Shown piece after piece: positions 3,508-13,509 of a DNA stretch of 64,000 nucleotides. The translations under genes and the position numbers were made by a program. Origin of the DNA: Erythrobacter litoralis (GTDB lineage Bacteria > Pseudomonadota > Alphaproteobacteria > Sphingomonadales > Sphingomonadaceae); assembly GCF_001719165.1 (NCBI RefSeq), contig NZ_CP017057.1, forward strand, positions 1,922,001 to 1,986,000. Direction: 5' to 3'. Numbering within the stretch: the stretch's first letter is position 1; every line of letters begins with the position of its first letter. The notes under the pieces were generated by a model, which saw nothing but the letters and a program-made list of their open reading frames with translations, was not told where the DNA came from and ran no database searches.

Positions 3508-5628
3508 CTATTCCACCATGAATCGAACGGTCAGCGTGAACGACTGCCCGCCGGCGAAGGCTCCCCCGGGGCGGACCCTGAAATCGGTAATCCCGGTATC
3601 GCAGCCATCCCCGTCGGCGCTTGGCGCATAGGACCAGGACGACCCGTCATCGCTCGAGAATTCGAGATCGTCGCCCGTCTGCGCAAGGCCTGAGAAGCTG
3701 TAGGAAAGTCCCGATGCCCCGCCGCTGTCGGCGAAGATGACCGGACCTGCCGAACGCGCCATCAGGCACATCTTGGCATCGGCCGGGCCGTTGTCGATCA
3801 CCACGACACTGTCCGCATCGGCCGGATCGGTCCCGGTATTGGCGACAGTGATGAGATATTCGACCATCGCACCGGGGATCGCCTTGGGATTGGTGGTGCC
3901 GTTGACCGGATCGGACAGCACCGAACTCACCTTGCTGACCGAAAGCCGGGCAAAGGGATTGCACACGGCAATGTCATGGATCGCGATCGCCTGCTGGCCG
4001 GGGTCGCCCGGCGCGGTGTTCGTATTGCCGTAGCGGATCACGATCGTGTCGACCGCCTGGTTGAAGGTGACGACGGCATTGCCCAGCGCCTCGTCGGTGT
4101 CGGAGCCGCCGTCGCCGGTTATGACATTGCCACTGACGAAATTGGCGTTGCCGTTTGTAAGCGTGGGCAGAACCGAGCTTCCTGCGAGCTGCCCGATGAC
4201 GGTGACATTGTCGGCGAACTGGCCGCCGAAGAAGTCGATGTCGAAGATGTTGAACTGGATTCCGGTAAAGGCGCGCGGCAGCGTGATCACAAGCTCCACC
4301 TCGCCCGCAAGGTTCGCCTGGTCGGCAAGCATGACGAGGCTCCCCTCGGGCACTGAAAGCCCGCCGGTAAAGGCATCGTCGACGGTCGGCGACTGACCTC
4401 CGAAAGTCGGGTTGTTTAGAAACACGCCGTCATTGCTCAGTGCAAAGGCGATCGTGCCGAACGATCCGAAGGCGTATGAATTGCTCAGGCTGCCCGGCGT
4501 CCAGCCGGCGATCGTGTCCCAGTCGAAAATGGCCGATCCGGCCGGGCAGGACAGCATCGGCGGGACCCCGGGCGCGCGCCCGCTCTGCACGGTGAAGCTC
4601 GAGACAGCGTAGTCGTCCTCCGAAGTGAGCGCGTTGCCGGGCGTGGAATCGATGTCGATCACCGAACTTGCCGTGATTTCCGCGGTGTTCGTGACAAGGC
4701 TTCCCGCTCCCGCGGCAATCGTGCCCGAAAGGGTCAGGAGCGCGCTCTGCCCCGGGGCAAGCGTTCCCACCGTCCAGTCGCCCGTCACCGCATTGAAACT
4801 GCCATCCCCGCTCGCGCTGGCGAAGGCGAAGCCGCCCGGCAGGGTGTCGCGCACGACGATCCCGCTCGCCGATACGGGCGAGCCGGCCGCGTTGGTCACG
4901 GTCAGCCGCCACGTCGCGGTCCCGCCCGAGACCGGCGGCGCACCAAGAAGCGACTTGGTCAGTGAAAGGTCGGCGAAATCGTCCGGCAGCGAGGTCAGCC
5001 GCAGTTCGGCGTAACGAAAGCGTCCGTCATCCGCGCCCGGGAAGACGTCGCACACCTCCATCCGCCACGTCCCCGCGCTGGACACGCCGATGAAAGCGGC
5101 GAGCGGCGAATTCGGGCTGAACGTGTTGGCAAAGGGCGGCGGGTTGGTGGTCGACTGGTTTCCGGTCGGATCGGTCGAATTGACCTCCACCACAGCGTCA
5201 TCGTCGAGCAGGGCATTGAGATTGTTGCCGCTCGTGGAAGTGGCATCCCCGTCGACCAGTTGAACCCGGGTGCCATCGGGCGCCTCGAGAGTGACGCGGA
5301 TGTCCCCGCGCCAGGAATGGCGGGCGAAAAAGCCGAAATCGACATCGCCGACGATGAAGCTGTCGGTGACGGAGAAAGTCCGCACGAGCGGCGAACTGCA
5401 GGGCGTGTCCTCGTTGAGCGCGGCGTTGTCGTTCACTGAATAGGTGAACACGGCCTGCGCCATTACGGGCTGCGCGAACGCCATGCAAAGGGCCACCACC
5501 AGGATACGCAGCGCGCCCCTGACGAGCATTTCGATACGGCGTTGCCAGCCCTCCCGGTCCATTCGCCCGGCATAGGAGGACATGGTAAACGCCCGGTTTA
5601 CCTCGTTGGCGCCGCTCCCCCGCTTCAT
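3508..5628 (-). CDS. Exported P-domain / DUF11 repeat protein
   Basis: This 706-residue exported protein is the last gene of the five-gene surface cluster. Its ATG overlaps the stop of the 1729-residue gene (ATGA). A second ATG at residue 34 begins a cleaner signal peptide (MLVRGALRILVVALCMAFAQ, cleavage near MAQA), so the true start may be 5529. Residues about 58-215 form a proprotein-convertase P-domain (SWRGDIRVTLEAPDGT, then SAGTWRMEVCDVFPGADDG), with no protease domain. A first DUF11-type repeat follows at about 220-330, then a beta-rich stretch, then a second DUF11 repeat from about 561. The second repeat contains SDPVNGTTNPKAIPGA, also found almost unchanged in the 343-residue protein of the same cluster. 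Role unknown; an adhesive or structural surface protein is inferred. Confidence 0.75.
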   Translation of the reverse strand: MKRGSGANEVNRAFTMSSYAGRMDREGWQRRIEMLVRGALRILVVALCMAFAQPVMAQAVFTYSVNDNAALNEDTPCSSPLVRTFSVTDSFIVGDVDFGFFARHSWRGDIRVTLEAPDGTRVQLVDGDATSTSGNNLNALLDDDAVVEVNSTDPTGNQSTTNPPPFANTFSPNSPLAAFIGVSSAGTWRMEVCDVFPGADDGRFRYAELRLTSLPDDFADLSLTKSLLGAPPVSGGTATWRLTVTNAAGSPVSASGIVVRDTLPGGFAFASASGDGSFNAVTGDWTVGTLAPGQSALLTLSGTIAAGAGSLVTNTAEITASSVIDIDSTPGNALTSEDDYAVSSFTVQSGRAPGVPPMLSCPAGSAIFDWDTIAGWTPGSLSNSYAFGSFGTIAFALSNDGVFLNNPTFGGQSPTVDDAFTGGLSVPEGSLVMLADQANLAGEVELVITLPRAFTGIQFNIFDIDFFGGQFADNVTVIGQLAGSSVLPTLTNGNANFVSGNVITGDGGSDTDEALGNAVVTFNQAVDTIVIRYGNTNTAPGDPGQQAIAIHDIAVCNPFARLSVSKVSSVLSDPVNGTTNPKAIPGAMVEYLITVANTGTDPADADSVVVIDNGPADAKMCLMARSAGPVIFADSGGASGLSYSFSGLAQTGDDLEFSSDDGSSWSYAPSADGDGCDTGITDFRVRPGGAFAGGQSFTLTVRFMVE
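3841..3928. repeat. Repeat copy A shared by two DUF11 genes
   Basis: These 88 bases match 11075-11162 with about eleven differences. The central 51 bases (3867-3917 against 11101-11151) differ at only two positions. Both copies encode the same stretch of a DUF11 repeat. Confidence 0.8.
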
Positions 5629-8600
5629 CGCCGCCCCCCGATGCCGAGAGCGTTGCCGAGCGAGGCGAAGAGATCGTTGTCGAACTTCATTCGCACCGCC
5701 GCGAACACGCCCTTGTCGGTGTTGCGAGCGGCGGCGAAATCGCCGTCGCGAAAGCCGTCGACATTGTAGCCCACGGTGAGCAGCATGCCTTCCACCGGCG
5801 AGAAACCGATCGTCGGACCATAGGCGAAATCGGTCACTTCGTCTTCGATGTTGGTCCGCACGCTCGCGCTCGCGCCGAGCTCGAAACTTTCACCGAGTCC
5901 GATCCGCGCATCGAGCCCCGCGATCAGCGTCGTGCCTGAAAATTCGGTCTCCTCGAAGCGGTCGAAATTGTAGCGCGCGCCCAGGAACAGCGTGTATTCG
6001 TCGCGGCGGACCTGTTGACGCAGGCCGCTTTCATCCGCTTCCCAGCCGCGCGGCGACCAGTTGGTCGAAACGCTCCCGACAAGCCTGCGCGTCACCGAGT
6101 TCCCGTCCACCACAAGGGCGGTGCGCCCGGCCGCCCCCGCCTGCCCGGCCACCGCATCCTCGATCGCGTCGCTGCGGAATTCGAGCTTGCCGAGCATGGC
6201 AACTTCGGACGCATCGGGACGATGGGCGAAGGCGATGCTGGCATCGAAGATCTCGCTCGACGCGCCATTGCGGGTTTCAGCCATGGTCCAGGTTGCGCCC
6301 GAACCGACGATGCTGCCCGCGCCCAGCTGGCGGATCGCGCCGAAGGTCACGCCCATCCGGTCGGCCTGTTCGCCGTCGCGGTATTCGCCGCGCGCGACGA
6401 GGCTCCAGCGATCCTTGCGCCATGCCCCGCCAAAAGTGACGGCGGTGAAATCCTCGAATTGCTGCCCCCCGGTAAGCTGCCCCCCGCTTGCCGCGGGCTG
6501 GAGCGGATTGACCAGATCGCTCGTATCCGGCGCGCCGTTCAGCGTCCGGTTGCCGTCGAGAGTCGCATCCAGCGTCAGTTCGGGCGTCACCTGCAGCGTC
6601 TGCGAAAGGCCGAAGGCGGCAAAGGAGCGCACGCCGAGCTCGCCGATGGTCTGTTGTCCGATGGACGTAACGACCTGGCCGCCGCGCCACGGGGTCGTCT
6701 CGATCCCGCCGAGTAGCTGGCGCGAATCGATATTCGCTCCGTCGGCGATTTCGTAAGTTCCCACGATCCTGACATCCTGGGTGATGGCATAGCGCACGCC
6801 CACCCGGTGGCGGGCGGGCAGATCGATGCTTTCCGCGTCGTCCAGCGCAATGGCGGTCGCGGCCGACAGTTCGAGCCGGTTATCCATCAGGCGCTGCGTC
6901 GCGCCGGCTTCGAGCACAGTCGACGTGTTGTTCGTCCCGTCGGCAAGCCGGTCGTCGAAATGGGTGATGCCGATGCGCAGATCGGTCGAACGCCGCGTCA
7001 GGTTGATCTGCCCCTGGGCGGCGCGGCGCCGGCTGGCATCGATCAGGCTGTCATCCTGCCACATGCTTGAGAGCAGGGTAAGATCCTCGGCCAGCCGCAC
7101 GCGCCCGTCGAGACCGACCTTGCGGCGACCGACCTCGGCCCCGTTCTGCTGGCCGACGCCGTAATCGGCCTCGACCTCGCGGGCGTAGGCGAGCAGGTCG
7201 AGGCTGCCGGTCTGGTGCTGGGCTTCGATCAGCCAGCCCGTGGCATTGTCGCCCTCGCGGCGGCTGACGCCGAGTTCGGCGCGCACTTCCGTGCCGGTCC
7301 CGATCCGGGCGAGCACATCGAGCGCGCCGATATCGGTCCGCGCTTCGCCCGTCGCGCCCGACCCCGCATCGCTGATCGCGCTCGCACCGATCCGCACGCT
7401 CCCGTCCGCGCTCGTCCAATCGGCGCGAAGCCCCGCATTGAGCCTCGCCTCGCCCTGCCCGGCGGTCTCGTATTCGATCACGATGAACTGCGGATTGAGA
7501 TTTTCGTCGCGGCTCAGGATCGGTTCGCGAAAAGTGATCGTGCCCGAAAGGAGGTCGATGTCGTAATCGATGAAGCGCGACAGTTCGGTCTCCGAAACAA
7601 TCAGTTCAGAACGGAACCTGTCACGGACCTGCAGCACGACGCGCTCCGAATTGGGAAGTATCCGGCGGCTGCCGATTTCATAGGGGCCGGTGATGCCCTG
7701 GCCCTGGATTTCCTCGCGGCGCAGGAGGCTCGCGATTTCGGCGGCAAAGCCCTGCGCCTTCACCTGACCTAGCCGCGCCTCACCCTTCACGCCGGTCGCG
7801 GTGCGGTTGTAGCGGGCGAGCCGAGTCTGGTTGAACGCGGTCTGGAAATCTCCGTAGAGGGCATAGAAGGTCAAGGTCTCGATACGAACATAGAGCTTCT
7901 CGCGGCTCGCCGCATCGAACCGGCGCGCGGAGGCATCGGCGAAAACGGTGTAATAGGCCTGCGGGTCGAGCGTGCCGAGCAGGCGCTGGTCCTCGCGCTG
8001 CTTGGCGCTGTCATAGGCGAGCGTCAGCAGATATTTCCCAAGCACCCTGCCCTTAGCATAAAGCGCCACACGGGCGTTGTCGCCAAGGTCGCTGTCGAAA
8101 CGCCCGCTGCGCTCCATGTTGTCCGCCACCGAGCGCGCACCGGCCGTGCCTTCGGCAAGGCCGACGATGGTCCATTCGATGTCGCCCGGTTCGATCCAGG
8201 CCTCGAGCTCCTGCCGGCGCGCGATCTCGCCATCGTCGAAGGTGAAATCGAGCTGCAGCGACCCGCTCACCATCGTGGGCGCGAGTTCGATTCGCGCGAT
8301 CCCGTCATCGCCTTCGACCACCCAGCGCGCCTGGCCCGGCGCGATGCCGGTGAGCTGGTTCAATTGCTGGCGGTCGAGCTGATCGGCGCTTTCATAGGGC
8401 GCATTGAGAGTGAAATTGCCCGATACGCCTTCGCGCAAGGGGCGGTTGTTGCGGTCGAGCACCCGCACCGCGACGACCGGACGCGTGCGGCCGTCGGCGA
8501 CAAGGCTGCTTTGCCCGGGCACCAGTTCGACCCGCGCGGGCCGCGTGGTGAAGAAGACTTCGCGGGTGAAGCTCTTGGACGGCATCCCGAAGGAATTGAT

Positions 8601-10814
8601 GATCTGCGCCTCGAGCACGGTGCGCTCGTTGACCAGCGGCACGCCGCGCCACAGGCTGACCGCATACTTCCCGCTTTCGGGCGTCTCGGTCCCGTCGAAG
8701 GAGAGCGGGTCGACGTCCTTGCCGTCGATCTTGAGGACGACCTTCTGACCGCGCCGGTGACGCACGGCGACGCGGATCGCGGGCGCGCGCGGATTGGCGT
8801 CGACGGCGGGGGCAAGAAAGCCGTCCTCCCCGTCGCCCAGAGCGAGCCATTTGTCGCCCGGATCGGAGGCGGCGGCTGCAGCGATCTCGGGCCCGGTCGG
8901 GACAGGTTCGCCGCTTTCCGCGCCCTCGCCGCGCACACGCGCGACCAGCTCGACCGGGGGAGCGGTTTCCTCGATCGATCCAGCGGGCAGAACCGCGTGG
9001 AAATCGGCCACGACAAGGCTGCCGCCCTGCCCGATGGCAAAGCGCGAGGAGGCGCTGCCGGCGTTACGCGTCGAGCCGATGCAATCGACCAGCTTCGCGC
9101 CCTCGGGCAGTGTCATGCGCGAGACGGCGACGACGTGCGTGCCGGGCACGACGCCTTCGAAATGGTAGCGCCCGTCGGCATCGGTCACGGCGAAGCTGCC
9201 GTCCTCGAGCATCACGCGAACCCCTGGCATTCCGCGCCTTTCCCGATCGGTGAGAGTGCACTCGCCTGCGGTGACCCGGCCGATGATGGTCATGCGATCG
9301 GCGATCGTCTCGCGCTCGATATCCACCGCGGCGCTGGCTCGCGCGATGCGGCCGAGCGCGTCTTCGACCTTCGCTGCGTTGACCGCCCGGCCCGGAGGCG
9401 CATCGGGCCTGACACTGACCGCGTAGACGATCCGCGCCGTCTCACCCCCGGCAAGATCGCCGAGCGCGATGGTGAGAGCGCTTCCATCGGGCGCGAAACC
9501 GACCGCGTCCTCTCGCGCTTCGCCGTTGATCCGCACGCTGCCTGCCCGCAGTCTCAGCCAGCGCGAGGGCGTGTCCGTGACGACGACATCACGCTTGATC
9601 CGAGAGGGGTCCGCATTGCGCACATTGAGCGTGTAGAACACGACGTCGCCCGGCATCGCCCGCTGGCGCGAAGCGGTCTTCGTGAGAGCGAGTTCGAGGC
9701 TCGGCGCGTCGAGCGGAATGTCGACCTCGAGAGCGCTTTCATTGCCGAGCGCGAAAGCTGCTCCGTAGGAAGCTTCGCTCACCGCGAAACTGCCTCCGCC
9801 GGGCCGCGTGAGCCGGGCGATCAGGTCCGGCGGCACCGCCGAGGGCGCGGCATAGGGTGCGGGCGGCTCGACCTCGATGCGGTATCGTCCCGGCTCGGTA
9901 AGCGGAAACCAGAATTCCCCCGGCCCCATTTGCGTCACCCGTCCCGCCCCATCGGCAAGCGGGGCGCCGGAAACGACGCTCGAGGGCCAGGGCGTGACGC
10001 CATCAGACGCGAAGACGGTCGCGGGCTGCCCGGTCGCATCATCGATCAGCGTGACGCGGGCGCCATCCACCGGCTCGCCCGTCTCGCTGTCGAAGACCAC
10101 GCCGAACGGATCGGCCAGAACCGTCAGAGCCGTGCTAACGAAGACCGTTTCCGACCCGGAAAGCAGGGCCGCGATCTCGATTTCGGTACCATCCTCGATC
10201 GAAAGACGGCAATCGCCCGCGATCGGTGCGGGCGGCATCCGCCGCGTTTCGATCTGCCCCACGAAGACACCCGTGTCGGGCCCGGTTTCGAAGACGACCA
10301 CGCGCTCGGTATCGCCGCTTGAGGTGGTTATGGTGACATCGATCTGTTCGACGGCGCCGGAGTCGGTGTTGGCAGCGCTGGCGCGCACTTCGAAGAACAG
10401 GTCCTGCCCGGCTCGCAGCACTTGTGTCTGTTCGACCTGAACGCTGAGCGGAGCGGCATTCCCGCTCGCCACGCCCGAGCCGACGCTCGAGGCGTCCTGT
10501 GCGCCCTCTCCCGCGACATTGCAGACCGGCGTTCGGAACGTGAGTTCCACGGCGCTTCCCGAGGAGTCGCGAAAGGCGCGGATTTCAGGAGGCGACAGGG
10601 TGACTTCGACGGTCACCTCATTGCTTTGCGTGCCTGCCGTAACGCCGCGAATGCGCCAGTTGGCTTCAGCGATATTGGTTACGGTCCGGATCGTCTCGGC
10701 GGTTTCGCCGCCAGCGCGATCCTGCGCGCGTGTCCCCTCTCCGGGCACGACGAATGGCAGCAGCACCAATGCGAGTGCTGCTGCCAGACGCCTCAGAGAG
10801 GGGACACCACGCAA
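5625..10814 (-). CDS. Very large exported DUF11/SdrD-like protein with C-terminal outer-membrane beta-barrel
   Basis: This 1729-residue protein starts with a signal peptide (LAAALALVLLPFVVPGEGTRA). The N-terminal module reads VTNIAEANW...SNEVTVEV, the same opening theme as two smaller proteins of the cluster. A DUF11 repeat lies at about 375-500 (LALTKTASRQRAMPGDVVFY) and a carboxypeptidase-regulatory/SdrD-B-like fold at about 508-565 (MPGVRVMLEDGSFAVTDADG). Ig-like segments follow to about 890. From about 905 to the end the sequence is strongly amphipathic beta, with alternating aromatic and hydrophobic residues and Gly/Asp/Asn turns, as in an outer-membrane barrel. A conserved-looking block, YALYGDFQTAFNQTRLARYN, marks the barrel start. 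The C-terminus is GIGGRR rather than the usual terminal Phe. It probably anchors the cluster's secreted partners; function unknown. Confidence 0.75.
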   Translation of the reverse strand: MRGVPSLRRLAAALALVLLPFVVPGEGTRAQDRAGGETAETIRTVTNIAEANWRIRGVTAGTQSNEVTVEVTLSPPEIRAFRDSSGSAVELTFRTPVCNVAGEGAQDASSVGSGVASGNAAPLSVQVEQTQVLRAGQDLFFEVRASAANTDSGAVEQIDVTITTSSGDTERVVVFETGPDTGVFVGQIETRRMPPAPIAGDCRLSIEDGTEIEIAALLSGSETVFVSTALTVLADPFGVVFDSETGEPVDGARVTLIDDATGQPATVFASDGVTPWPSSVVSGAPLADGAGRVTQMGPGEFWFPLTEPGRYRIEVEPPAPYAAPSAVPPDLIARLTRPGGGSFAVSEASYGAAFALGNESALEVDIPLDAPSLELALTKTASRQRAMPGDVVFYTLNVRNADPSRIKRDVVVTDTPSRWLRLRAGSVRINGEAREDAVGFAPDGSALTIALGDLAGGETARIVYAVSVRPDAPPGRAVNAAKVEDALGRIARASAAVDIERETIADRMTIIGRVTAGECTLTDRERRGMPGVRVMLEDGSFAVTDADGRYHFEGVVPGTHVVAVSRMTLPEGAKLVDCIGSTRNAGSASSRFAIGQGGSLVVADFHAVLPAGSIEETAPPVELVARVRGEGAESGEPVPTGPEIAAAAASDPGDKWLALGDGEDGFLAPAVDANPRAPAIRVAVRHRRGQKVVLKIDGKDVDPLSFDGTETPESGKYAVSLWRGVPLVNERTVLEAQIINSFGMPSKSFTREVFFTTRPARVELVPGQSSLVADGRTRPVVAVRVLDRNNRPLREGVSGNFTLNAPYESADQLDRQQLNQLTGIAPGQARWVVEGDDGIARIELAPTMVSGSLQLDFTFDDGEIARRQELEAWIEPGDIEWTIVGLAEGTAGARSVADNMERSGRFDSDLGDNARVALYAKGRVLGKYLLTLAYDSAKQREDQRLLGTLDPQAYYTVFADASARRFDAASREKLYVRIETLTFYALYGDFQTAFNQTRLARYNRTATGVKGEARLGQVKAQGFAAEIASLLRREEIQGQGITGPYEIGSRRILPNSERVVLQVRDRFRSELIVSETELSRFIDYDIDLLSGTITFREPILSRDENLNPQFIVIEYETAGQGEARLNAGLRADWTSADGSVRIGASAISDAGSGATGEARTDIGALDVLARIGTGTEVRAELGVSRREGDNATGWLIEAQHQTGSLDLLAYAREVEADYGVGQQNGAEVGRRKVGLDGRVRLAEDLTLLSSMWQDDSLIDASRRRAAQGQINLTRRSTDLRIGITHFDDRLADGTNNTSTVLEAGATQRLMDNRLELSAATAIALDDAESIDLPARHRVGVRYAITQDVRIVGTYEIADGANIDSRQLLGGIETTPWRGGQVVTSIGQQTIGELGVRSFAAFGLSQTLQVTPELTLDATLDGNRTLNGAPDTSDLVNPLQPAASGGQLTGGQQFEDFTAVTFGGAWRKDRWSLVARGEYRDGEQADRMGVTFGAIRQLGAGSIVGSGATWTMAETRNGASSEIFDASIAFAHRPDASEVAMLGKLEFRSDAIEDAVAGQAGAAGRTALVVDGNSVTRRLVGSVSTNWSPRGWEADESGLRQQVRRDEYTLFLGARYNFDRFEETEFSGTTLIAGLDARIGLGESFELGASASVRTNIEDEVTDFAYGPTIGFSPVEGMLLTVGYNVDGFRDGDFAAARNTDKGVFAAVRMKFDNDLFASLGNALGIGGRR

Positions 10815-10834
10815 AGTCTAGGTCCGGATCGGGA

Positions 10835-11866
10835 TCAGTTGATCGTGACCCGGAAATAGAGCGAGCGTGTGCCGCCCGCCGCGATGTCGCTGAGCGAGCC
10901 GGTTACCTGATCGAGACCGCCCGGACCCGTGCCGGCGCTGAACGCGCCGCCCGACGTGCCGTTCTCGCAGTTCGCATCACCATCGACGAAGGTCGAACCG
11001 GTGACATAGCTCACATCCGCGGGCAGATCGTCGATCACGTCGACATCGGTCGCTGTCGCACCGCCGGCCGCATTGGCGACGGTGATGCAGTATTCGATCG
11101 TCGCACCGGGGATTGCCTTGGGATTGGTGGTCCCGTTGACCGGATCGGACACGACCGAGCTCGACTTGGCCACCGTCACCAGCGCACCGGCGACTTCATA
11201 GGTTCCGAGCGCCGAGAAGGCACCGTCATTGGCAGCGTCGGTTTCGCCCGCGCCGTCGAACAGGACGGTATCGATGCCCGAAGTGTTGGCCCCGGCGGTA
11301 TCGACGAGCGGATTGCCCGAATCGTCGGTCGCATCGGCGGTCAGCACGACATCGAACAGGTCGCCATTGACCGCGTCGAGACCGATATCGGCCACCACGA
11401 GAACCGCGACGGTTTCATCCTCGGCGACGTCATCGAGCGTCGTGATCGCACCGGCGGTCAGTTCTGCCGCATCGAGCACGCCGTTGTCATTGCTGTCGAG
11501 ATAGATCTCGAAACTGCCGATATTGGCTCCCGTCCCGCCGGTCAGCGCGGTCGTGAGATCGAGGTCGACCTCATCGTTCGACAGGTTGGTGACGTCGAAA
11601 GCCAGCACGGCGTTCTCTTCGCCCGGCGTGACCGATGTGTTGCCCGCGCCGGTAAAGGCGACCGTGACATTGACCCGGCGGTCGACCGTGAAGGTGTCGG
11701 AATCCGTTTCGTCGTTCTGCTGGACGCCGCCGACCTGGTACTGGACGGTGACGGTGTTGGTGATGTCGACGCCGGCGGATGTGCCGGCGGCGATTGCCGG
11801 AGCGCTGGACATTGCGACAAGCGCAAACGCGCTCACCGCACCCAGCAATTGGGCGGTTGGTCTCAT
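10835..11866 (-). CDS. Secreted DUF11 repeat protein with EF-hand-like loop
   Basis: This 343-residue protein has a clear signal peptide (MRPTAQLLGAVSAFALVAMS, cleavage after APAIAA). The mature N-terminus opens with VDITNTVTVQYQVGG, matching the start modules of its neighbours. A 12-residue loop, DSNDNGVLDAAE (11462-11497), fits the EF-hand pattern D-x-N-x-N-G-x-L-x-x-x-E. The C-terminal half is a DUF11 repeat carrying VVSDPVNGTTNPKAIPGA from about residue 237. The protein ends abruptly in a beta-strand, YFRVTIN. The composition is acidic and rich in Gly, Thr, Asp and Asn, typical of calcium-stabilised surface proteins. It is co-directional with the large barrel protein 20 bases downstream. 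Role inferred only: surface-displayed structural or adhesive protein. Confidence 0.75.
   Translation of the reverse strand: MRPTAQLLGAVSAFALVAMSSAPAIAAGTSAGVDITNTVTVQYQVGGVQQNDETDSDTFTVDRRVNVTVAFTGAGNTSVTPGEENAVLAFDVTNLSNDEVDLDLTTALTGGTGANIGSFEIYLDSNDNGVLDAAELTAGAITTLDDVAEDETVAVLVVADIGLDAVNGDLFDVVLTADATDDSGNPLVDTAGANTSGIDTVLFDGAGETDAANDGAFSALGTYEVAGALVTVAKSSSVVSDPVNGTTNPKAIPGATIEYCITVANAAGGATATDVDVIDDLPADVSYVTGSTFVDGDANCENGTSGGAFSAGTGPGGLDQVTGSLSDIAAGGTRSLYFRVTIN
11075..11162. repeat. Repeat copy B shared by two DUF11 genes
   Basis: This is the partner of 3841-3928, lying about 7.2 kb away in the same orientation. The central 51 bases carry two differences. Confidence 0.8.
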
Positions 11867-11904
11867 TTCTACTGGTCCTCTGCGTGTGCCCCGCGTCGAT
11901 TACG

Positions 11905-11947
11905 CCGCCCGCAAGGCTTGGCGGCTGGCATCCGCCCTTGCGGGCGG
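11905..11947 (-). promoter_or_regulatory. Strong intergenic hairpin inside the DUF11 cluster
   Basis: CCGCCCGCAAG (11905-11915) is perfectly complementary to CTTGCGGGCGG (11937-11947). Five further pairs, GGCGG/CCGCC, lie inside after a four-base bulge. It lies between the 172- and 343-residue genes. No T-run follows on the minus strand, so it looks more like an RNA-processing, stability or partial-termination element than a classic terminator. Confidence 0.5.
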
Positions 11948-11967
11948 AAGATCTCGTGCCTGCCTCG

Positions 11968-12486
11968 TCAGCGAATGATCGCCGGATATTCCAGCCGCCC
12001 GGTCTCGCCCGGCGCGATGCGTTCGAGCGTCCAGCGGACATGGGTGACGTCGGCATGGGTGGCGGCCCGCGCCGTTCCGTCCTCGCCCCGACTGGTCAGG
12101 TCGGCGAGCACGCCCCAGCTCTTGCCCCCGTCGACCGAGACGACCAGCGCCGGATCGGCATCGGGGGCAAGGCGCACGGCGCCCGGAACGGCGTTGGTGA
12201 CGACGAAATCGGTCACCGGCTCGGCACCGTCATTGGCGTAGCCGGTCCCGAAGATCACCCGGTCCCCGGGCACGATGACCTCGGGTTGTACGAGCTGCAC
12301 GGTTTCGATGCCGTTCGCATCGGTGACCGTCTTCACCGCTTTCACGTCACCGGTAAGCGTGACCGGATTGGCCTTGGCCGGGGCCGCCTGCGCTGCGGCT
12401 GTGCCCTGGTCATCCTGCGCTGCGACAGGTGCCGACAGAGCCGCGATGACGGCCAGCGACATCATAATGTTTCCAAGCAATTTCAT
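11968..12486 (-). CDS. Small exported DUF11-like protein
   Basis: This 172-residue protein has a signal peptide (MKLLGNIMMSLAVIAALSAP, cleavage after VAAQ or nearby). The mature part has one beta-sandwich-like domain: an opening VTLTGDVKAVKTV, then PGDRVIFGTGYANDG and FVVTNAVPGAVRL. This resembles the stripped-down core of a DUF11 repeat, in which a pro-gly-asp turn is followed by an xNxG strand. It ends in RLEYPAIIR. It is the second gene of the surface cluster, 30 bases after the 330-residue gene. I do not recognise a characterised family, and no catalytic motif is visible. A subunit or adaptor of the same surface assembly is the most economical inference. Confidence 0.7.
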   Translation of the reverse strand: MKLLGNIMMSLAVIAALSAPVAAQDDQGTAAAQAAPAKANPVTLTGDVKAVKTVTDANGIETVQLVQPEVIVPGDRVIFGTGYANDGAEPVTDFVVTNAVPGAVRLAPDADPALVVSVDGGKSWGVLADLTSRGEDGTARAATHADVTHVRWTLERIAPGETGRLEYPAIIR

Positions 12487-12516
12487 GGTCCTGAGCCTTT
12501 ATCTTTCCAAGCATTA

Positions 12517-13509
12517 TCAATTGATTGCGACATCGAACGCGATGGTGTGGCCGGTCCCGGCGGCGACCGTGCCGAGATCGACCCGCACGCCGTCCGCGTC
12601 GGAGGCGCTGCCGGCGTCGGCGTCGCTCGCATCGGTCAGCGGGGCCCCGTCGAGCGTGAGGGTTCCGGCCGCGTAGGTCGTGCCTGCGGGAATCGCGTCG
12701 CTGACGACGAGTTCGTCGACCGAACCGCTTCCCGAAACATTCGCGGTGATGGTGAATGTCGCGATCGAGCCCGCGACGGCGCTGGTCCCGCCGAATGGGT
12801 CCGACACACTCACCGCCTTGGTCAGCTCGACGCTCGCCACTCCCGCCTGCATCCGGCCGAGCGCCGGGGCCGAGGCGCCGGTCGTGCCGACGACGGCATC
12901 CCCGCCCCCGTCGCCCGCACCCGCGAATACGGTGCCCGCAGCACCGCTACCCGTCGCGGCATTGGCGGTGAGTTCGACTTCACTCTCGGCCGTGTCGGGG
13001 ATGCCGTCCGGCACGGTCGCGAGCACGAAAACGGTGATGGCTTCGCCCGGTGCCAGCTCGCGCGTGGTCTCGGGAGCGGTGAGGATCTCGTCGACACCCG
13101 GATCGTAGGTGCCGTTGCCGTTGGTATCCACGGCAAGCCCGTCGATCCTGACGTCGAAATCATTGCCGGCCACCGCCGGATTGGCGATCAGTTCGAAGCT
13201 TTCCGGGCCATTTCCCGTATTGGTCAGTTCAAAAGCGAGCACCGCTTCGCCCGGCCCTACGTCGAGAGCGCCAGAATCGAGCGAAGTAAGGGTGACCTCG
13301 AGCAGTTCGTCGACGCGCAGCGATACGGTGTTCGAGCTGATCGTGCGCGGACCGCCCGCATCTTCGTACGTGGCCTGCGCGGTGTTCTCGATCAGGGTCC
13401 CGGCGCTGACCGATTGTGCGCGTGCGGCAGAAGTTGGAACAAGCGCGAGCACGATCGGCACCGCAAGCATGGCGGCGAAGATCCGGCGGTAGCCGTGCTT
13501 GGTATTCAT
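12517..13509 (-). CDS. Secreted DUF11 repeat protein, first gene of surface cluster
   Basis: This 330-residue protein has a positively charged n-region (MNTKHGYRR) and a hydrophobic core ending near TSAARAQ, a good Sec signal. An ATG at residue 14 would leave no basic n-region, so the ATG at 13509 is preferred. The mature N-terminus carries LIENTAQATYEDAGG and SNTVSLRV, the same opening as in its neighbours. DTNGNGTYDPGVDE (from 13128 leftwards) is a DxNxNG calcium-binding-type loop. A DUF11 repeat follows from about residue 225 (VELTKAVSVSDPFGGTSA), and the protein stops in a terminal strand, IAFDVAIN. Its ribosome-binding site and start codon lie within a 41-base hairpin. Role: probably a structural surface protein (inference). 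Confidence 0.75.
   Translation of the reverse strand: MNTKHGYRRIFAAMLAVPIVLALVPTSAARAQSVSAGTLIENTAQATYEDAGGPRTISSNTVSLRVDELLEVTLTSLDSGALDVGPGEAVLAFELTNTGNGPESFELIANPAVAGNDFDVRIDGLAVDTNGNGTYDPGVDEILTAPETTRELAPGEAITVFVLATVPDGIPDTAESEVELTANAATGSGAAGTVFAGAGDGGGDAVVGTTGASAPALGRMQAGVASVELTKAVSVSDPFGGTSAVAGSIATFTITANVSGSGSVDELVVSDAIPAGTTYAAGTLTLDGAPLTDASDADAGSASDADGVRVDLGTVAAGTGHTIAFDVAIN

Follow-up and report, generated by a model that had tools for sequence, protein, structure and literature searches.

Organization of the Five-Gene Cluster

The window analyzed here is a stretch of 64,000 nucleotides from Erythrobacter litoralis (positions 1,922,001 to 1,986,000 of contig NZ_CP017057.1, which is 3.25 Mb in length). 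Near its start lies a cassette of five genes, designated A to E (Table 1), which is the subject of this study. An earlier reading of this DNA, made without database searches and hereafter called the sequence-only reading, had described five co-directional exported genes, and this description is confirmed: all five are minus-strand frames, and a signal-peptide-like stretch, judged by eye rather than by a predictor, opens each of the proteins when E is counted from an internal Met. A and B are separated by 30 nucleotides (nt), B and C by 101 nt and C and D by 20 nt, whereas the frames of D and E overlap. When the genome itself was searched for DUF11, four matches were obtained (E ≤ 0.001); they fall singly in A, C, D and E, and no other gene was matched.

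Relatives were collected from GTDB contigs, and the best 80 of 133 loci were kept for the cassette counts; linkage was counted over the 72 loci whose sequence extends beyond 3 kb upstream of D and the 71 loci in which it extends beyond 1.5 kb downstream. The relatives in this named search belong mostly to Erythrobacter, Porphyrobacter, Qipengyuania and other Sphingomonadales. Genes A-B-C-D stand in this order on one strand in 72/72 loci, and E was assigned in 66/71, three of these upstream of A. The joint conservation expected by the sequence-only reading for all five genes thus holds for the quartet and less strictly for E, whose place is less fixed. The loci with E upstream of A and not downstream of D are all from Novosphingobium (L116, L143 and L144). 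Counts of D that take in partial and distant matches give 25 of 61 related genomes, all of the same genus, and 61 of 246 genomes of the order, all of the same family. Second copies within the genus are about 53% identical and keep the quartet A-B-C-D. In two loci (L039 and L041) the D gene is split over two frames, by assembly error or decay.

Table 1. Features of the cassette in the window, with residue numbers of the encoded proteins.
Feature	Positions	Strand	Remarks
Gene A (A330)	12517..13509	-	Exported putative stalk subunit: N-terminal donor hairpin, domain 1 (DxNxNG loop), truncated C-terminal DUF11
Gene B (B172)	11968..12486	-	Exported single DUF11-like domain, no hairpin; Asn98 at the Asp position, Lys not conserved
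Gene C (C343)	10835..11866	-	Paralogue of A, architecture as A
Gene D (D1729)	5625..10814	-	Putative base and outer-membrane barrel platform; TTG start, stop codon just upstream
Gene E (E706)	3508..5628	-	Variable, tip-like: P-domain, complete DUF11, middle region, truncated terminal DUF11; no donor hairpin
A donor hairpin, residues 34-69	13303..13410	-	Asn42 in 69/71 rows; HMM 36/36 held out
C donor hairpin, residues 29-64	11675..11782	-	Asn37 in 71/72 rows; HMM 39/39 held out
D donor hairpin, residues 42-75	10590..10691	-	Asn47 in 73/75 rows; HMM 40/40 held out; predicted fiber anchor point
A truncated terminal DUF11, residues 224-330	12520..12840	-	Lys231 70/71, Asp271 70/71
C truncated terminal DUF11, residues 228-343	10838..11185	-	Lys234 72/72, Asp279 72/72
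E terminal DUF11-like domain, residues 562-706	3511..3945	-	Lys566 61/65, Asp612 62/65
D internal complete DUF11, residues 371-505	9300..9704	-	Lys379, Asp414, Asn479; Pfam profile 2-98 of 114
D CarboxypepD_reg domain, residues 520-566	9117..9257	-	Pfam E 5.1e-11
D beta-barrel region, about residues 880-1729	5628..8177	-	Very likely barrel; AF2 and DSSP strands, Foldseek
E P-domain, residues 102-206	5011..5325	-	Pfam E 7.9e-9
B-C intergenic stretch	11867..11967	-	Two stem-loops possible; minimum free energy -41 kcal/mol, z -1.5 vs shuffles

Truncated DUF11 Domains and Displaced Hairpins

The DUF11 ("CLIPPER") domain can be closed by a Lys-Asn isopeptide bond that is aided by an Asp, as was shown in 2025 by crystal structure 9IFR (Lys715-Asp748-Asn806 in the repeat 708-828), and this bond is not universal among DUF11 domains (PMC12617251). 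DUF11-type domains, which the sequence-only reading had proposed, occur in all proteins of the cassette but B, whose single domain is only DUF11-like. Above the Pfam cut-off, D holds DUF11 and CarboxypepD_reg and E holds DUF11 and the P-domain; TIGR01451 reaches its cut-off in these two proteins and also in A and C. Whole A matches Pfam DUF11 below the cut-off (21.1 vs. 24.6 bits) and whole C gives sub-threshold matches only; taken alone, the terminal domains of both proteins pass (A, 25.2 bits; C, 33.0 bits). B has no family match over the cut-off, its weak Pfam DUF11 match (positions 7-51 of 114) lying at E 0.033.

The terminal DUF11 domains of A and C stop at Pfam positions 82 and 78 of 114, where the chain itself ends. 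The distance from the last-strand column to the end of the chain is 5-6 residues in A (71/71), B (73/73), C (68/72) and E (63/65). A profile of 142 positions was built solely from complete DUF11 domains, namely the internal ones of D and E, and the match of the A terminal domain to it breaks off at position 99-101 in 72/72 cases. Only five columns are invariant among 78 A and C sequences, and this set includes both the isopeptide Lys and the isopeptide Asp. Lys, Asp and Asn stand in one contiguous chain in the internal DUF11 of D (Lys 72/75, Asp 74/75 and Asn 72/75 rows) and in part in the internal DUF11 domains of E (Pfam profile 1-106 of 114; Lys 36/65, Asp 49/65 and Asn 37/65), the E of the window holding all three. 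In the domains that close A, C and E, the chain stops short of the Asn hairpin.

A two-strand hairpin with the corresponding Asn is found at the opposite end of the proteins. The sequence-only reading had noted that an opening module recurs in the 330-, 343- and 1729-residue proteins, that is, in A, C and D. The module is real: a hidden Markov model (HMM) trained on half of the loci and scored on the other half recognized it above 10 bits in 115/115 held-out A, C and D proteins, and in 0/74 B and 0/66 E proteins. It is, however, more than a shared motif: it matches the missing DUF11 end of A and C. On the 142-position profile, the A hairpin alone aligns mostly with positions 103-137 at a median of 6.4 bits (shuffles, 1.0; reversed, 2.3), and 35/72 lie above the 99% point of the shuffles. 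The D hairpin alone gives 3.3 bits against -0.4 for shuffles and 0.9 for reversed sequences (19/76 above the same point).

Joining of a terminal domain to a hairpin restores most of the DUF11 profile for A and C. In this test, each join was compared with 11 controls carrying reversed or shuffled hairpins. The median gains were 13.5 bits for A+A, 12.2 for C+A, 8.4 for C+C and 8.1 for A+C, and the controls of these joins had medians of -0.3 to -2.3 bits. All 11 controls were beaten in 72/72 A+A, 68/69 A+C, 58/70 C+A and 57/72 C+C joins, and the joined matches extend to median positions 137 (A+A), 136 (C+A), 125.5 (C+C) and 127 (A+C) of 142. A corresponding Pfam join on the window proteins (C+C 7, C+A 5.5 and C+D 0.4 bits) was set aside as unspecific. 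The case that the terminal domains of A and C are a split form of DUF11, with the opening module as its missing end, is strong; for the hairpin of D it is moderate. The terminal domain of E, which alone scores 20.6 bits with Pfam DUF11 (profile 9-56 of 114), would be an acceptor as judged from its Lys, its Asp and its chain end.

A read-through model was computed with AlphaFold2 (AF2) from mature C and the N-terminus of D of locus L078, in frame across the stop codon, with 15 natural C-D rows and 46 single rows. The mean predicted local distance difference test (pLDDT) was 87.7 and the predicted template modelling score (pTM) was 0.58, scores from which the placement of either hairpin cannot be read. 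Foldseek neighbors of this model, found at low template modelling (TM) scores and informative at the level of class, include Ig-type adhesins and isopeptide pilins (PrgB, AgI/II, SpaD, BcpA and EbpB), and also S-layer proteins, integrins and a ciliary protein. Sequence searches of the PDB gave no credible relative, and 9IFR did not appear among their results.

Probable Barrel of D, Variable Tip-Like Proteins and Protein B

The C-terminus of D is very likely a membrane barrel, as the sequence-only reading had supposed. The AF2 model of residues 655-1729 consists of long beta strands (mean pLDDT 76.9, pTM 0.70), 31 strands of at least 7 residues being assigned by DSSP from residue 1124 onward. 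Outer-membrane barrels (SlpA, the Mtr complex, LptD, SprA, FimD, PapC and TonB receptors) make up most of the top Foldseek hits; the TM scores are about 0.1-0.3, and the hits also include apolipoprotein B and an axoneme chain, so that the answer holds at the level of class. Membership in the type V autotransporters was rejected on the Pfam scan, which gave no autotransporter barrel match in D. Type 9 secretion was likewise rejected: no match to SprA or to the C-terminal sorting domain was obtained in Pfam or NCBIfam at E ≤ 1, and the resemblance to SprA is weak (TM normalized by the query ≤ 0.18), one among many barrels.

E was earlier read as a P-domain/DUF11 protein, which is correct for the E of the window and does not extend to all loci. 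The P-domain is not a constant part of E, whose N-terminal half differs from locus to locus in the manner of a pilus tip. Among 67 E proteins, this half falls into four clusters (44, 16, 4 and 3), formed by loose linkage, by which the P-domain and other types fall together. In a survey of ten proteins, the domains found were P-domain and DUF11 (L143), CshA_NR2 and SpaA_3/4 (L079), an ice-binding domain (L197), a beta-helix (L139), and a beta-helix with SpaA and DUF11 (L188). DUF11 was also seen in L084, L097, L151, L048 and L049 (below the cut-off in L151 and L049), L084 having in addition a sub-threshold CARDB match. The ice-binding domain (PF11999) lies in the fifth gene of a distant cassette (L197:609-1817, minus strand), in tip position.

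The sequence-only reading had grouped three small proteins. A and C are indeed paralogues, and B differs from both in having neither the hairpin nor the isopeptide residues. In B, the Asp position is Asn in 70/73 rows and the Lys candidates are unconserved (45/73 and 48/73), so B appears to be an open but chemically disabled terminal domain. B may cap donor hairpins without reacting, as a chaperone or terminator. Solitary B-like genes occur at L203:9074-9553, L204:8294-8917, L205:9149-9724 and L208:9202-9687, and also in L207, with no adjoining cassette gene recognized by the HMMs used; three genomes with such genes (G094, G106 and G109) also carry a D. Such genes would be consistent with a protein that acts on its own in the periplasm or as a cap. 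The B profile matches 39 of 398 Pseudomonadota genomes.

Distant Cassettes and Split-Type Operons

The same 398 genomes were searched with a profile that covers the conserved stretch of the D barrel (alignment A4, eight rows), which matched 56 of them, one weakly. Comparison of the two genome lists by hand gave 30 genomes with both B and barrel, 9 with B only and 26 with barrel only. Among 20 regions around distant barrels, four have subunit genes beside a fused D, namely L183 (A-B-C-D), L197 (A-B-C-D-E), L179 and L185. At least 10 of the 20 (L180, L184, L187, L188, L190, L191, L192, L194, L195 and L196) have a split form, in which a DUF11 protein is accompanied by a separate barrel of about 1090-1740 amino acids (aa). 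The remaining six comprise contig ends, cases of a lone fused D, and regions that the frame picker left unresolved. D homologues of distant Pseudomonadota (L181, L183 and L185) reach about 2000-2250 aa.

Operons consisting of tip, stalk, base and barrel genes are also present in genomes of the same genus (L048, L049 and L052; L050 is similar and lies at a contig end). By motif search, the tip in L048, L049 and L052 has no hairpin, the stalk has both a hairpin and an open end, and the base has a hairpin, its own end not being DUF11 as judged by eye. In L049, the Pfam score of the tip rises from 26.2 to 44.7 bits on joining to the N-terminus of the next gene product (profile 1-113 of 114), compared with 28.0 for the reversed and 26.9 for the shuffled hairpin; in L050, the DUF7507 score rises from 67.4 to 81.7 bits (reversed, 63.3; shuffled, 66.9). 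The stalk+base joins in L049 and L050 score 84.6 and 55.5 bits, without controls of their own. The tip and stalk C-termini of L050 end in TQADIDNLQ or QQADIDNLQ and the next mature N-termini begin with QIVNTATVTG and DIVNNAVATG, which together read like a single domain interrupted between two genes. Among 17 terminal domains from distant or split relatives, Asp is present in 17/17 and Lys was seen in 15/17 (7 by alignment and 8 by eye). The case for split DUF11 parts at gene ends is strong in these split-type relatives as well. The operons of L048 and L049 are followed by two conserved frames, by eye a LysM-like protein and a sensor kinase.

A Proposed Model for Fiber Assembly

The cassette probably encodes an outer-membrane-anchored adhesive fiber, assembled by exchange of split DUF11 parts in a chain E-(A/C)n-D, with junctions that are probably sealed by isopeptide bonds. 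In this model, A and C would be two-domain stalk subunits whose last DUF11 ends before the final two-strand hairpin, and the hairpin of one subunit would complete the terminal domain of its neighbor. Both this exchange between chains and a covalent intermolecular bond are likely, as judged from sequence. The bond would be an autocatalytic Lys-Asn isopeptide bond, which is probable because the terminal domains of A, C and E hold Lys and Asp and the hairpins of A, C and D hold Asn. Because E has an open terminal domain and no hairpin, it could serve solely as the distal end, or tip; because D has a hairpin and no open terminal domain, it could serve solely as the proximal end, which is fused to its own barrel. 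With A, C and D as donors and A, C and E as open Lys/Asp domains, the chain closes as written. Subunits may be exported through or beside the barrel of D, and adhesion is the presumed role.

A wider reading, for which the chances are close to even, is that this machine follows a logic like that of SpyTag/SpyCatcher, the Asn hairpin reacting spontaneously with the Lys/Asp groove of the neighbor to give, on the surface of Gram-negative cells, an enzyme-free covalent polymer welded to an outer-membrane barrel and bearing interchangeable tips; the multi-gene and giant-chain forms across Pseudomonadota would then be versions of one machine.

Several results weigh against the proposed fiber or fail to support it. 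The C hairpin alone is not significant on the 142-position profile (3.4 bits vs. 1.5 for shuffles and 5.1 for reversed sequences; 0/73), and in the Pfam join on the window proteins the reversed C hairpin gained 6 bits against 7 for C+C. Joins with the D hairpin are weak (A+D 5.5 bits, 39/70 beating the controls; C+D 1.0 bit, 30/71), and the terminal domain of E gains nothing from any hairpin (-0.7 to -0.8 bits), since it aligns over the first half of the profile only. In the read-through model, the D hairpin has a pLDDT of about 70 compared with 91-96 for the own hairpin of C, and closure in trans is not distinguished from closure in cis. Mutual-information coevolution within and between chains gave no hairpin-groove signal, at about 43-55 effective sequences. 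The D proteins of L179 and L185 have no hairpin by motif search, and the corresponding stretch of A in the distant L183, VVSSTATV, carries Ser at the Asn position. B also has solitary copies, and E was not assigned in 5/71 loci: L152 has a long unassigned frame at a contig end, and L075, L113, L126 and L134 have no E-like frame in the sequence that follows D.

A fiber with the same exchange but held non-covalently by strand complementation, perhaps with calcium, would leave Lys, Asp and Asn as structural remnants. The isopeptide bond is not found in every DUF11 domain (PMC12617251), B has lost the Lys/Asp pair yet keeps a DUF11-like domain, and domain 1 of A has a DxNxNG loop with Asp128 and Asn130 in 71/71 rows, which makes calcium binding by this loop plausible. 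The invariance of Lys and Asp among the A and C sequences is nevertheless hard to explain without chemistry, and this version is unlikely. Closure in cis, with the hairpin of A or C folding onto its own terminal domain to give self-closed two-domain proteins and no polymer, is less probable still. It requires no partner, agrees with the high pLDDT of the own hairpin of C in the AF2 model, and might be favored by the fact that A+A scores highest of all pairs; it cannot, however, serve D or E, which each have only one of the two parts, and it would make the tip-stalk-base pattern of L048, L049 and L052 a coincidence. D might also be a secretion or uptake pore, with A, B, C and E as separate soluble or periplasmic partners and the module as a mere signature of the domain family. 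The size of the barrel and the presence of LptD, SprA and TonB receptors among its Foldseek neighbors agree with this idea, which is nonetheless very improbable, as it leaves the exact truncation, the distribution of hairpins and the conserved triad unexplained.

The sequence-only reading had interpreted the barrel protein as an outer-membrane platform for a calcium-stabilized surface assembly built from DUF11 units, an interpretation that is partly supported. It had also stated that a C-terminus other than a membrane barrel, or genes not conserved together, would speak against a single system; both were looked for, and neither was found for A to D.

If the model is correct, the cassette is an uncharacterized appendage system that lacks both sortase and chaperone-usher genes, and the model accounts for the DUF11 proteins that neighbor large barrels in 14 or more of the 20 distant regions. 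The sequence rule of donor hairpin and open terminal domain may then name tips, stalks and bases, and new self-ligating tag/catcher pairs could be obtained. Residues for testing are Asn42, Lys231 and Asp271 of A, Asn37, Lys234 and Asp279 of C, and Asn47 of D.

Other Features of the Region

The neighbor of the cluster reads by eye as proB. No promoter-like site was found in the cluster region. A terminator-like stem is present between cluster genes, in a region whose stem count is not above that of shuffled sequence. The stem-loops of the 101-nt gap between B and C might set the ratio of B to C expression; the folding of this gap is not significant against shuffles.

Comparison with Known Systems

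In Gram-positive pilins, the bonds between subunits are made by sortase. This is also stated in PMC9715654. SpaD, BcpA and EbpB, which are isopeptide pilins of this group, are among the Foldseek neighbors of the C-D model.

Chaperone-usher pili (type 1 and P) have an N-terminal donor that completes the next subunit, a two-domain tip without a donor, and an outer-membrane barrel as platform. Some of these facts are also given in PMC9715654. The cassette would share the N-terminal donor element, the donor-less tip and the outer-membrane barrel platform, the likeness being one of sequence pattern. Unlike in these pili, the donor in the cassette is a two-strand hairpin, and the domain that it would complete bears isopeptide residues. 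Membership was rejected, because no usher, PapD-like chaperone or fimbrial family was matched in the five proteins (Pfam, E ≤ 1; the search covered these proteins and not genes elsewhere in the genome).

In the open-licence PMC literature, no description of the cassette or of a split DUF11 was found among the matches listed, as judged by title and the start of the abstract. DUF11 is listed as a stalk domain in PMC9210967 and is used in an anchor protein in PMC11952670; PMC3219624, which concerns DUF115, proved a false lead. Archaeal cannulae are assembled by chaperone-free donor-strand complementation with calcium, according to the title of a reference in PMC11952670. The archaeal threads of Saci_0406 (PMC9715654) are also filaments built with donor strands, and a covalent isopeptide bond has been proposed to link their subunits. 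That link joins the N-terminal amine of Asp24 to Asn57, from subunit n to n+2 (PMC9715654), whereas the link proposed here would be Lys-Asn with Asp, from neighbor to neighbor and within DUF11, the two being compared by description. GhlA, a grappling-hook-like filament (PMC13319060), is a long surface filament of DUF11 beads; it is one giant chain and resembles the giant-protein relatives of the cassette, not the multi-gene form.

The DUF11/CLIPPER fibrillar adhesin of Acinetobacter silvestris (B9T28_05395, 9IFR; PMC12617251) has the same domain family and the same Lys-Asp-Asn triad. It is also a Gram-negative surface stalk, and it has an adhesive domain of the CshA type (PMC12617251), as does E of L079. 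By definition, a fibrillar adhesin carries adhesive domain and stalk on one polypeptide, an arrangement that the cassette does not have; E alone also holds a DUF11. In the adhesin, a single chain comprises both domain and Asn hairpin, and the bond forms within it (PMC12617251), whereas here the domain is cut at the gene ends. The adhesin is a single polypeptide; in the cassette, tip, stalk and base would be the products of separate genes with a barrel of their own.

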